Shown: positions 42,751 to 47,094 of the stretch, one piece after another
Position numbering within the stretch: position 1 is the first letter of the stretch
Layout of the letters: each line of letters starts with the position of its first letter
NCBI RefSeq assembly: GCF_025562455.1
Contig: NZ_JAHPRO010000005.1
Location: forward strand, 1-64,000
Length of the DNA: 64,000 bases
Reading direction: 5' to 3'
Origin: Acinetobacter sp. WU_MDCI_Axc73
Lineage (GTDB): Bacteria > Pseudomonadota > Gammaproteobacteria > Pseudomonadales > Moraxellaceae
Notes under the pieces: model-generated
Told to the model about the DNA's origin: nothing
What the model saw: the letters and a program-made list of their open reading frames with translations, nothing else
Databases searched by the model: none
Program-made: the position numbers and the translations under genes

Positions 42751-44724
42751 TTAGTTTCGAGTTACAATAGGAAATGTACCATTTGCTTTATCAAACAAAG
42801 AAAAAAACTTTCTTAAACTCATGCGGCTTCCTTGTATTTGGGTATCTTTAGAAAACATAAGAGCTAGTGCGCCACTCTGCCCTGTCATCATATTCAAAAA
42901 GAAGGGTTTGGTCAGCGTGAGAGTTACAGCAGCATCTGCTGTAGGTTGCTTAACTTCCTTAAAGTTCATAACCGCATTATTGACTTTAATTTCATATATT
43001 TGATTTAAATCAGAGAAAACTAAATTTAATGTCAAATTTACATTTTCAGCACGATTTGCATTTAAACTAGCTGCCATAGACTCCAAAAAACGCTCAACTG
43101 GCGTATGTTGCAACATATCCAATAATATAACCGGTGTCACTCCTGTTTTTGGAGTACCATTTTTTAGTTCCTGAGCGCCTGTTAAATAGAAATTTCGCCA
43201 TGTAGATGCTTCTGACATATAGCCCAATTGACTAAATGTTTTGATCTGCAAGTCCTTAGCCTGCTGATTATTTGGATTCGCATATATAACATGTTTTAGC
43301 AGTTCAGCCCCCCAACGATAATTACCTTGATCATATGCTTGTTGTGCCGTTGCAATCATTTTAGCTTCACCACCCGCCAAATCCACATAACCTTGTGCAG
43401 CTTGCTTAACGGGTAAATTATCCAGATTTGCAGGGTTAGCATCAAACCAGCCCATGTAATATTGATACACTGCTCGTGCATTATGTTTAACCGTTCCATA
43501 ATAACCGTGCACATTTAAATACTGATCTAGTTGAGGCGGCAATTTAATATTGTCGGATATTTCACTTCCAGTCATACCTGCATTAATCATACGTACAGTT
43601 TGATCATGAATGTATTTGTAACTATCTCGCTGTACAGTAATAAATTGTTTGATATTATCATTTCCCCAAACAGGCCAATGATGCTGGGCAAAGAACACTT
43701 CTGCGTCTTTTGCATGATCAAGTGCTTGATCGAGATAGCTCACCCATTTTAATGTATCCCGAACTTTCGCCCCTCTTAAAGTATACAAATTATGCAAAGT
43801 ATGTGAGAGGATTTCAGCGCCACCATAGGCTTTTTGCTGGGGTAAATAAAACGTTAATTCCGCAGGAGCTTCAGAGTTTGGAACGTTATAAAAAATGAAA
43901 TCAACCCCATCGACAGTCATCGGTTGAACGGGTTGAGTTACCAAAACTGTCGGTTCGAGAATACCAATATGACCAAATGAAACCGCTTTTCCTAAGCCAT
44001 TATCGACCAATCCAGACTCATTTCGAGGAAGAGATCGACCATACATATAGTTTGCGCGGCGCCCCATTGCAGGGCCTACCATTAAATTTTCACTGGTTGC
44101 TTCTTCCATAAACCCCACAGGTGCAATCACAAGAATGTTCTTTGATTTAACCTCTTGTTCAGATAAAACGCCGAGCGCTCCACCAAAATGATCAACATGA
44201 CTATGAGTAAATATAATGGCGGATACTGGCTGATTACCCAAATGCTGACGAGCAAACTGCATAGCTGCAGTCGCTGTTTCTTTAGAAGTCAATGTATCTA
44301 CCACAATCCAGCCTGTTTTTCCCTGAATTAATGTAATATTGGCTAAATCAAAACCACGAAGCTGCCAAATGCCATCACTGACTTTAAATAACCCAATTTG
44401 GTTATTTAAAATTGCCTGCTTCCATAAACTTGGGTTAACTGTATCTGGTGCATTTCCTTGCACAAAACCAAAACTGTCAAAATCCCAGACAATATTTCCC
44501 TGATCATCACTAATTTTCCCAAAAGGTTTGGCAATAAATCCTTTCATTGCATTTTTTATTTCTTGGGTATTATTTAAATCATGAGCTTGTGTGAATTTTT
44601 TCTGATAATTCAGAGTAGTCTGCTCAACAGGAATACTGCCGGAGAAAGATACAGGTGCATACATGGAAAATAAAATAGAAATCACTAACGATTTATGATT
44701 TAAATTAAAATTTTTTATCTGCAT
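42751..44724 (-). CDS. sdsA1: Secreted alkyl sulfatase (SdsA1/BDS1 family)
   Basis: Zinc metallo-beta-lactamase-fold enzyme that hydrolyses primary alkyl sulfates such as dodecyl sulfate to alcohol and sulfate. The 657 residues begin with a signal peptide (hydrophobic core, end near SFSGS). The lactamase domain has the metal motif FTHSHVDHFGGALG near residue 173 and further ligands in SEAPAELTFYLP and FFAQHHWPVWG. A helical dimerisation domain (about 400-530) and an SCP2-like C-terminal domain (about 535-655) complete the family layout. A divergent TetR gene with a large palindrome between them suggests substrate-inducible control. Confidence 0.92.
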   Translation of the reverse strand: MQIKNFNLNHKSLVISILFSMYAPVSFSGSIPVEQTTLNYQKKFTQAHDLNNTQEIKNAMKGFIAKPFGKISDDQGNIVWDFDSFGFVQGNAPDTVNPSLWKQAILNNQIGLFKVSDGIWQLRGFDLANITLIQGKTGWIVVDTLTSKETATAAMQFARQHLGNQPVSAIIFTHSHVDHFGGALGVLSEQEVKSKNILVIAPVGFMEEATSENLMVGPAMGRRANYMYGRSLPRNESGLVDNGLGKAVSFGHIGILEPTVLVTQPVQPMTVDGVDFIFYNVPNSEAPAELTFYLPQQKAYGGAEILSHTLHNLYTLRGAKVRDTLKWVSYLDQALDHAKDAEVFFAQHHWPVWGNDNIKQFITVQRDSYKYIHDQTVRMINAGMTGSEISDNIKLPPQLDQYLNVHGYYGTVKHNARAVYQYYMGWFDANPANLDNLPVKQAAQGYVDLAGGEAKMIATAQQAYDQGNYRWGAELLKHVIYANPNNQQAKDLQIKTFSQLGYMSEASTWRNFYLTGAQELKNGTPKTGVTPVILLDMLQHTPVERFLESMAASLNANRAENVNLTLNLVFSDLNQIYEIKVNNAVMNFKEVKQPTADAAVTLTLTKPFFLNMMTGQSGALALMFSKDTQIQGSRMSLRKFFSLFDKANGTFPIVTRN

Positions 44725-44874
44725 TTATTTTCATCCATTGAATTTAAGTACATCTATATATTTAAGACAAGCATCCTCACAATTAAAAAATAATTTTTTT
44801 AAACATTTAAGTGATGATTATCAAAATAAAAAAAATCATTAAATTTTGGTTTTGAATCCAAGTCATTCTGATCG

Positions 44875-44912
44875 GTTGACAACATTAATCCAATTAGATT
44901 AATGTTGTCAAC
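44875..44912. promoter_or_regulatory. 38-bp perfect palindrome with symmetric promoter elements
   Basis: The arms GTTGACAACATTAATC and GATTAATGTTGTCAAC are fully complementary around a 6-bp AT spacer. Each strand carries TTGACA, 17 bp and TTAATG, so a promoter may face both ways. The site lies 28 bp before the tetR ATG. It is the probable operator of the adjacent TetR protein, controlling both itself and the alkylsulfatase gene (inference). Confidence 0.8.
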
Positions 44913-44940
44913 AGACTTTAGATCTGAAGTGTAATCAGAA

Positions 44941-45558
44941 ATGCAACATAGTGAAACCCAACTAAAACTGATTGAAGCAGCCATTCTTCTCTTTTCACAG
45001 AATGATGCGACTCGTCTTTCCGTTCAACAAATCAATGACTTAGCAGGAGTTTCAAATAAATCTGCATTGTATTACCACTTTAAATCTAAATGGGGACTGC
45101 TGGAAGCTGCATTGAGCTATGTATTGACCCCCTACGCCAAACAAAGCTTAGAGGAACTTAATAAAATTTCAGAAGATCATATTGAACCTAACAGCATTGT
45201 AAAAGCCATGTATAGACCAATGGTGAATATTTTATTGCAGGACAACGGGCTTCAATATCTCAAGTTTTTTTCTCGAATGATTAGTACTGGAGAAGAAGGA
45301 CGAAAAATGATTGCAAAAGAATTATCACCTATTGCAAAAAAGGCAACTCAACTTCTGTCTCAGGCATTTCCGGAAGCCAGTAAAGATGCCATTGATTTAA
45401 AAGTCTTATTTACTTTTAACATTATTTTAAATGTCATTAGTGATGTAGGACTAGAGCAATATTGGGCTACAGATATTAAAGATCGTAAATTAATATCAAA
45501 ATATCTGATTGATTATATTGAAGGAGGAATCACCTTTAAAATAGATTTACAGTATTAA
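44941..45558 (+). CDS. TetR-family transcriptional regulator
   Basis: Regulator of 205 residues. The N-terminal HTH (about 1-55) reads IEAAILLFSQNDATRLSVQQINDLAGVSNKSALYYHFKSKWGLLEAAL. The C-terminal ligand domain is helical and not recognisable. It lies divergent from the alkylsulfatase gene, with the 38-bp palindrome just upstream, so local repression with relief by an alkyl sulfate or alcohol is the natural model (inference). The lipoprotein gene 95 bp downstream may be read through from it. Confidence 0.9.
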   Translation: MQHSETQLKLIEAAILLFSQNDATRLSVQQINDLAGVSNKSALYYHFKSKWGLLEAALSYVLTPYAKQSLEELNKISEDHIEPNSIVKAMYRPMVNILLQDNGLQYLKFFSRMISTGEEGRKMIAKELSPIAKKATQLLSQAFPEASKDAIDLKVLFTFNIILNVISDVGLEQYWATDIKDRKLISKYLIDYIEGGITFKIDLQY

Positions 45559-45653
45559 AAAGCCAAACTATTTTAATTTTATTTATAAGCGCCTTTATAG
45601 AATATATAAAATTATTCAGGTACTGATTAAAGTATAGAGAATGGATTCAAAAT

Positions 45654-47021
45654 ATGAAAATTTTAAATCGTACTTTAGTGATAGCACTTTCAAGTACATG
45701 CTTTCTCACGGCTTGTCACGATGACGATGATAATGACGTGGCACAAATCACTCCACCACCAGCGTTAACTGACTGTATGTGGCATGATGGAGTAACCAGT
45801 AAATCGCATACTGGCGAAGATGCAATGAATTTTGCCTATCCTGATACCAATGTAAATTATTACACTAGCCAATTTAGTATTCCAGATGGTGCAAGAGTAT
45901 TTGTCGATGGTGACTTCCCCTATTCTCGTCATATGTCTTTGGTAAGCTATGAATCAAATGGAACGCGTGTCAATTCACTATTAGATGCGGAGATTCAGCC
46001 AAATACTGGAGTTACCAACCCATTCGTGGTTGGCAATAAGCGTTTAGAAAAAGAACGTGGCTATTCAACAGAAATTAAAATTGGAAATTTACCCGCAAAG
46101 CCTGAGAAAAATACATTATATGCACCACCAACAAATGATAATTCTTTAGTCATTTGGTATCGCGTTTATGTTCCAAATGAAGGTTATGACAATAAAGGTG
46201 GGGTCGAGTTTCCACATTTTAGAGTAGTCACTAAAGAAGGAAAGGAAATTAAAGGTCAGGAGGTCTGTCAGTTCCTAAACGTTAAAGATAAACCTGTCCA
46301 AAATTATAATGCTTTTTCAGGGGACATCGTCCAAAAAGCATTTTCTAGACAATTATATCCTGGCTTTCCAGCACAATTAACTCCAACATGGTATGCTGCG
46401 CGTAATGGAACAGCCAATGCCCAATGTGCTTATAAGATTGGTATAGAAAAATGTGAAGGATTAACTCCTGAACGTAAACTCAATTTTTGGGCAACTCCCG
46501 ACAATGAATATGTATTTGCTACCACTAGTCGAAGAATAGGCAAGGTACTGCTATTAAATGGTAAATTACCAAAAATTGCTTCAACTCAAAATAACGAAGC
46601 CGTTCTAGGAGCTGGTGATCTTCGTTACATGTCGATTTGTACCAACGAAATTACATCTACAGCGACCAATTATTGCTTATATGATGGTGATCTAAGTAAA
46701 AATCTGGATGCTGAAGGTAAATATAAAATCATTGTTTCTTTGCCAGAAGATCGACCAAAAAATGCAACTGAAGAGTGCGGTTATAAGTTCTTGGCATTAT
46801 CTCCACGCGGCAGTGGTCTTAAGAGTCCAGTGGGTGAGGATTATGGTCATGAAGACTTTGGTTTATTAATTATGAGAAATTTACTGCCATATCCAGGCTT
46901 TAATCAAGCCGTTCAAAATACTTTGACTTGGGGTGATGAAAAGTCAATTATGGGTGATTATCTACCAACGATTCAGTATTTAGATCAAAATACTATCGAT
47001 AATCTAGAATGTAAGCATTAA
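45654..47021 (+). CDS. Unrecognised lipoprotein, 455 residues
   Basis: I cannot name a family. The signal peptide ends in the lipobox LTAC (Cys near 21), followed by an acidic HDDDDND stretch that would keep it from inner-membrane retention rules based on a single Asp at +2 only. The body is beta-rich and has six or more cysteines. Notable blocks are LVIWYRVYVPNEGYD, FPHFRVV and the C-terminal LIMRNLLPYPGFNQAVQN...IMGDYLPTIQYL. That last pattern resembles C-termini of other exported bacterial hypotheticals I have seen. Its position after the TetR gene and near the secreted alkylsulfatase suggests a shared regulon. A terminator follows. Confidence 0.72.
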   Translation: MKILNRTLVIALSSTCFLTACHDDDDNDVAQITPPPALTDCMWHDGVTSKSHTGEDAMNFAYPDTNVNYYTSQFSIPDGARVFVDGDFPYSRHMSLVSYESNGTRVNSLLDAEIQPNTGVTNPFVVGNKRLEKERGYSTEIKIGNLPAKPEKNTLYAPPTNDNSLVIWYRVYVPNEGYDNKGGVEFPHFRVVTKEGKEIKGQEVCQFLNVKDKPVQNYNAFSGDIVQKAFSRQLYPGFPAQLTPTWYAARNGTANAQCAYKIGIEKCEGLTPERKLNFWATPDNEYVFATTSRRIGKVLLLNGKLPKIASTQNNEAVLGAGDLRYMSICTNEITSTATNYCLYDGDLSKNLDAEGKYKIIVSLPEDRPKNATEECGYKFLALSPRGSGLKSPVGEDYGHEDFGLLIMRNLLPYPGFNQAVQNTLTWGDEKSIMGDYLPTIQYLDQNTIDNLECKH

Positions 47022-47029
47022 CTCTATAT

Positions 47030-47060
47030 AAAAGCCTACTTCAAATTGAAGTAGGCTTTT
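47030..47060. terminator. Bidirectional terminator lipoprotein / sohB
   Basis: A 14-bp perfect stem (AAAAGCCTACTTCA/TGAAGTAGGCTTTT) with a 3-nt loop and T/A flanks between convergent genes. Confidence 0.92.
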
Positions 47061-47094
47061 ATTTTGCTCGTGATTTTGTCGATAGATTTTCAAA

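Follow-up and report, generated by a model that had tools for sequence, protein, structure and literature searches.

Between a TetR-family regulator gene and the alkylsulfatase gene that diverges from it, the window (the whole 64-kb stretch of DNA analysed here) carries a long inverted repeat at 44875-44912. Is this repeat an operator, a pair of promoters or both at once, and which genes would it control? The features on which the answer depends are listed below.

42751-44724, minus strand: type III alkylsulfatase (metallo-beta-lactamase fold), 657 aa, divergent from tetR; PF14863, PF14864, PF00753
44875-44912, no strand: composite inverted repeat, read as one candidate operator with two opposed promoters from its symmetry and its conservation in A. 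guerrae
44876-44881, plus strand: putative -35 box TTGACA towards tetR and the lipoprotein gene, predicted from the sequence and the TTG-hexamer of relatives
44882-44887, minus strand: probable -10 TAATGT (N18) towards the alkylsulfatase gene, predicted as the mirror of the plus-strand element
44885-44902, no strand: candidate TetR operator core TTAATCCAATTAGATTAA; genus consensus TTAATCyAnnTrGATTAA, present within two mismatches at 18/18 tetR loci
44898-44903 and 44899-44904, plus strand: alternative -10s ATTAAT (N16) and TTAATG (N17) towards tetR
44900-44905, plus strand: probable -10 TAATGT (N18) towards tetR, predicted from the -10 position of relatives
44906-44911, minus strand: putative -35 box TTGACA towards the alkylsulfatase gene; mirror copy only in three genomes with divergent genes
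44941-45558, plus strand: TetR-family regulator, 205 aa (TetR_N and TetR_C_30); PF00440 at E 3.3e-9, PF17939 at E 2.4e-9
45654-47021, plus strand: 455-aa putative lipoprotein with a lipobox-like motif, LTAC (residues 18-21); constant neighbour of tetR, no Pfam or NCBIfam match at E 0.001

The inverted repeat and its rarity

The regulator belongs to the TetR family, with 36.8 bits for PF00440 (cut-off 24) and 37.9 bits for PF17939 (cut-off 26.3). The sulfatase exceeds the cut-offs of PF00753, PF14863 and PF14864, which places it among the type III alkylsulfatases, and its structural relatives are SdsA1 (chain E 4.6e-153), YjcS and PSdsA. By eye its N-terminus is signal-peptide-like. A second alkylsulfatase, 44% identical, is encoded elsewhere in the same genome (L021, G000:C11:13050-14933), and its 4.9-kb stretch holds no operator core within two mismatches.

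The repeat reads GTTGACAACATTAATC-CAATTA-GATTAATGTTGTCAAC. The sequence-only reading described it as a 38-bp perfect palindrome with 16-bp arms free of mismatches. The exact 16-bp arms are confirmed, and they enclose a 6-nt centre; "perfect" is slightly overstated for the whole, since 18 of the 19 pairs are complementary and one central pair fails. The remark that such exact symmetry is unusual holds as well. A first-order Markov simulation of the window, with exact arms, spacers of at most 10 nt and nested repeats counted, gave no arms of 16 bp or more in 60 simulated windows (longest 15), and a chance origin is thus unlikely. Under the same limits on arms and spacer, the real window holds only one further repeat with arms of at least 16 bp. 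This repeat, at 47028-47062, is terminator-like and lies directly past the end of the lipoprotein gene. The arms of the palindrome are single-copy in the 3.42-Mb assembly when searched within three mismatches. Compared with A. guerrae, 35 of the 38 positions of the palindrome are identical, against 94 of 191 columns in the remaining intergenic alignment (p 4e-7).

The operator core and its neighbours in Acinetobacter

Homologues of the regulator are found in 18 of 175 genomes of the genus (E 1e-10). At all 18 loci the core TTAATCyAnnTrGATTAA stands beside tetR or its partner gene (scan with at most two mismatches), which is the pattern of an autoregulated operator, a palindrome next to the regulator gene and conserved with it. 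The recognition-helix region of the regulator (residues 37-47) is invariant save residue 38 in a 17-row alignment. We counted 37 core sites, 12 exact, 23 with one mismatch and two with two mismatches; this count omits all three-mismatch sites and one two-mismatch A. proteolyticus site (L038:3507). At 14 of the 18 core positions the commonest base is present in at least 32 of the 37 sites. As to conservation of the arms in other genomes, the inner 18 bp is retained at 18/18 loci while the outer symmetry is present in three genomes only. As the simplest reading, an operator of the whole 38 bp was therefore discarded: recurrence is confined to the inner 18 bp in 15 of the 18 genomes.

The number of cores differs between loci. 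Ahead of the lipoprotein gene, 13 of the 18 genomes carry a pair of cores 21-25 bp apart (start to start), whereas the window locus has a single 18-bp core, a difference that bears on the dimer pair of TetR suggested in the sequence-only reading. Five of these 13, in which tetR comes first, hold an additional core ahead of tetR. In a sixth genome with tetR first (L037), one core lies ahead of tetR and one ahead of the lipoprotein gene.

The core is linked to the regulator. A search of the 18 tetR genomes with at most one mismatch finds it at 47 places, of which 35 are at the locus and 12 outside it; the reversed control pattern occurs at 14 places in the same genomes, so the off-locus sites show no excess. 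The exact core is found at 15 places in the 175 genomes, 12 of them at the locus in nine tetR genomes, compared with six places for the control pattern. It is present in 9/18 tetR genomes versus 3/157 others (Fisher 2.7e-8, with the 18 genomes not independent). The 3-kb surroundings of the three exact cores in genomes lacking this TetR match none of the seven locus genes tried. The window's own genome contains one exact core (44885-44902) and no one-mismatch copy. No regulon was found elsewhere in it, where nine sites within two mismatches (the exact one and eight with two mismatches) compare with 11 for the control.

A search of 72,556 plasmid records for the regulator gave no match at E 1e-30. 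In an order-wide sample of 390 genomes (E 1e-35) the one match was the window's own genome, only three members of the genus being among the genomes listed. Repeats of the AACCAATC...GATTGGTT type, seen near the lipoprotein, tetR or sulfatase genes of several relatives, were considered as an alternative operator and rejected as terminator-like by eye; where positions were compared, they sit shortly past the lipoprotein stop codon.

The lipoprotein gene adjoins tetR in 18/18 genomes, nine with tetR first and nine with the lipoprotein gene first. The sulfatase gene adjoins this unit in 9/18, three times divergently, five times after the lipoprotein gene and once after tetR. Judged from this gene order, the constant unit is tetR with the lipoprotein gene, and the sulfatase is a recurring recruit. 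At E 1e-60 a sulfatase was found in 12 of the 18 tetR genomes and no match in six. In the three genomes that carry it away from the locus, there is no core with at most one mismatch near the sulfatase gene, and TetR control of the sulfatase is thus not general. At E 1e-100 the sulfatase is present in 31 of the 175 genomes, 19 of them without this TetR. Its score is identical (889.2 bits) in eight genomes, suggesting a recent spread. On plasmids, 25 Acinetobacter records match the sulfatase (E 1e-100), with 58-71% identity among the best 15 of the 25. In the two plasmid sulfatase regions inspected, IS elements lie close by, no TetR is annotated and no core falls within two mismatches, though some sites have three or four.

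Each of the 18 tetR genomes has a lipoprotein at least 50% identical to that of the window, with the gene split in one of them, and G094 has an 87% identical fragment; ten further genomes hold only distant relatives (33-40%). A profile search against PDB sequences gave no match at E 1. A structural model from 17 sequences (mean pLDDT 71.6, pTM 0.70) matches 6ans (Z 15.9, rmsd 4.0, 269 aligned residues), VPA0106 (3u07, Z 11.7) and VPA0735 (3vb9, Z 11.3; 2p3y, Z 10.8), and the next row falls to 7.1. The model resembles these structures, at an identity of 10-12%, and the lipoprotein is without a Pfam match. In this model the VPA0735-like match is a fold relation and not one of function. We take the VPA0735 fold to be the one named DUF1254/DUF1214; a literature search for DUF1254 with DUF1214 returned nothing.

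The Pfam-less lipoprotein family (the window and L075-L078) falls into two groups, one accompanied by this TetR in 18 genomes and one more distant. The A. proteolyticus genome holds lipoproteins of both groups, and its operator-like site L038:3507 (normalised orientation, two mismatches) lies 29 nt upstream of the second, distant copy. In A. dispersus, A. sichuanensis and two Psychrobacter genomes, the lipoprotein relatives adjoin an opposed AraC-type gene. In the two Psychrobacter genomes the relative (35-36% identical) is near an alkylsulfatase (50-51%), with the AraC-type gene between them, an arrangement that points to a functional link of lipoprotein and sulfatase under different regulators. 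The locus ties an alkylsulfatase to a lipoprotein family that is uncharacterised, and distant members of this family are likewise found close to alkylsulfatases in these two Psychrobacter genomes.

Gene decay is also seen. In G164 the lipoprotein gene consists of two overlapping frames (L034:6406-7771), and tetR and the paired operators are kept. In L092 (G094:C3:843500-853500) a gene for a 310-aa DDE transposase occupies the place where tetR and operator would sit, and both flanking genes are truncated, from which a decayed divergent locus can be read. Alignments A1 and A2 omit the near-duplicate L025 rows and A1 also both pieces of the split G164 lipoprotein; alignment A3 omits L074 and the three remote rows L079-L081.

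Promoter elements and the operator model

In the window, TTGACA stands 3 nt outside the core on both sides and faces inwards on each strand. The proposed pair TTGACA-17-TTAATG is indeed present on both strands, but TTAATG is a poor -10 with 2/6 matches to TATAAT. ATTAAT (N16) has four matches and TAATGT (N18) three, the latter agreeing with TATAAT at the first T, the A next to it and the final T. TAATGT with an 18-bp spacer is the more likely -10 than TTAATG at 17, since it is aligned with the -10 of relatives relative to the core. Among the 15 genomes with a non-divergent layout, 13 have a TTG-hexamer 1 nt upstream of the first core before the lipoprotein gene, followed at 16-nt spacing by TATTAT (ten genomes) or TAATAT (three); L037 and L038 are the two that depart from this arrangement. 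As these elements bracket the core in the 13 relatives, the operator would fill the promoter spacer there.

The symmetry outside the core follows the gene layout. Of the ten flank pairs counted outside the core, all ten are complementary in the window, in Acinetobacter sp. S54 and in A. guerrae, and one to six at the 34 other sites. These are the only three genomes in which tetR and the sulfatase gene diverge. They are closely related, and the flank symmetry therefore counts as one evolutionary event. The reverse-strand hexamer pair matches at 10/12 positions in the three genomes versus 6-9/12 at the 34 other sites; the latter values show that promoter-like hexamers arise easily in such A+T-rich DNA. 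A consensus promoter scan of 44600-45750 gave six promoter-like sites, equal to the shuffled mean of 6.0, and none inside the palindrome at its thresholds. Read together with the gene layout, the outer arms are best interpreted as two -35 boxes. The symmetry itself, the linkage of core and tetR and the limitation of the flank symmetry to the divergent layout can be read directly from the DNA.

From these we infer TetR binding, repression, promoter use and an inducer, and the following model is in our judgement a probable one. The operator at 44885-44902 would lie in the spacer between -35 and -10 of two superposed, oppositely directed promoters of sigma-70 type, the rightward one serving tetR and the lipoprotein gene and the leftward one the alkylsulfatase gene. 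A dimer of the neighbouring TetR on the core would block polymerase both ways and so repress its own gene, the lipoprotein gene and the sulfatase gene. Its release would follow the binding of a ligand, probably a lipid-like compound that the sulfatase uses or produces, and at the free site polymerase would bind in one direction at a time. The shared operator over both promoters that the sequence-only reading had put forward is thus retained, on the strength of the core at 18/18 loci and of an outer symmetry limited to divergent genes, with the inner 18 bp in place of the 38. Its joint site for regulator and sulfatase also agrees with the comparison of genomes, with the correction that the constant neighbour is the lipoprotein gene (18/18) and not the sulfatase (9/18).

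A stronger form of this model is possible but tentative. One TetR dimer and polymerase facing either way would all compete for the same 38 bp, as a fully superposed antiparallel promoter, and the symmetry would have been selected once the sulfatase gene came to lie head to head with tetR. If true, such a promoter would impose a strict one-way-at-a-time choice between the sulfatase and the repressor with the lipoprotein.

Three other explanations were weighed against this model. In one, the core is a TetR operator whose main effect is on rightward transcription of tetR and the lipoprotein gene; the TTGACA that faces left would belong to a wider binding site, and the sulfatase promoter would lie nearer to its gene. 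The distance of about 150 nt from the palindrome to the sulfatase start, which implies a predicted leader of that length, would fit this, as would the weak -10s, the sulfatase adjoining at 9/18 loci only and the two plasmid sulfatase regions without a core within two mismatches. We nevertheless regard it as rather unlikely: the outer symmetry occurs only where the sulfatase gene diverges, and between palindrome and sulfatase start no leftward promoter was called in the scan of 44600-45750, although this does not list the palindrome either.

Another regulator (of LysR or AraC type, or a global factor) could also bind the core, with the TetR link being incidental. The identity of the operator is drawn from co-occurrence, more distant lipoprotein relatives adjoin AraC-type regulators, and an alkylsulfatase operon with the AraC-type SlfR is described in the excerpt of PMC3346939. 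Against this, the TetR is present at 18/18 core loci, and the exact core is rare without it (3/157), in 3-kb stretches that match none of the seven locus genes tried, which makes the explanation very improbable. A purely structural palindrome without a regulator (terminator, cruciform, mobile-element end or chance repeat) has, we think, a negligible probability. Long perfect arms are typical of terminators and repeat elements too, and the other 16-bp repeat of the window looks like a terminator; but no T-run or terminator was called in 44600-45750, and the single copy in the genome, the simulated windows and the better conservation than the surroundings in A. guerrae all speak against it.

Comparison with known systems

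A search of titles and abstracts found no description of this locus. The comparison puts forward a closely defined operator candidate for a small regulon of Acinetobacter, which did not come up in that search either. TetR-family autorepressors that act over divergent promoters are textbook knowledge. The general design suggested here is therefore already known, while the promoter geometry, as read from the sequence, would be unusual and is unproven.

The best NCBIfam match of the window TetR is the PsrA model NF053516, at 44.4 bits against a model cut-off of 300. As described in the excerpt of PMC13104628, PsrA, a repressor, has a palindromic site at the promoter of its own gene and is released by oleic acid at fadBA5. 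The operator given there, C/GAAACN2-4GTTTG/C, differs from TTAATCyAnnTrGATTAA of the present locus, and neither score nor site makes the window regulator a PsrA. The SlfR-slfCHSL operon of the Psychrobacter plasmid pP62BP1 is closer in layout: according to the excerpt of PMC3346939, it combines a type III alkylsulfatase with a divergently placed regulator gene, and repeats lie over both putative promoters, as in the window. Its regulator is of AraC type with proposed direct-repeat sites, however, and its sulfatase lies inside a longer catabolic operon; the excerpt mentions no lipoprotein, whereas the window locus has one.

In E. coli acrR/acrAB, the gene of a TetR-family autorepressor likewise lies beside its target with opposed promoters, and binding of one polymerase prevents that of the other (PMC12825309, in excerpt). 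Part of a single -10 hexamer is common to both directions in that case, while in the window separate -10s would lie within the operator arms with the -35s outermost. The class of bidirectional promoters outlined in the excerpt of PMC10268837 has starts 7-25 bp apart and overlapping -10 positions, compared with predicted starts about 37 bp apart (consensus placement) in the window. The superposed antiparallel geometry, if true, would thus be distinct from the shared -10 bidirectional promoters of these two accounts, and the locus would offer a compact natural test of polymerase's choice of direction, with two promoters on the same symmetric DNA.
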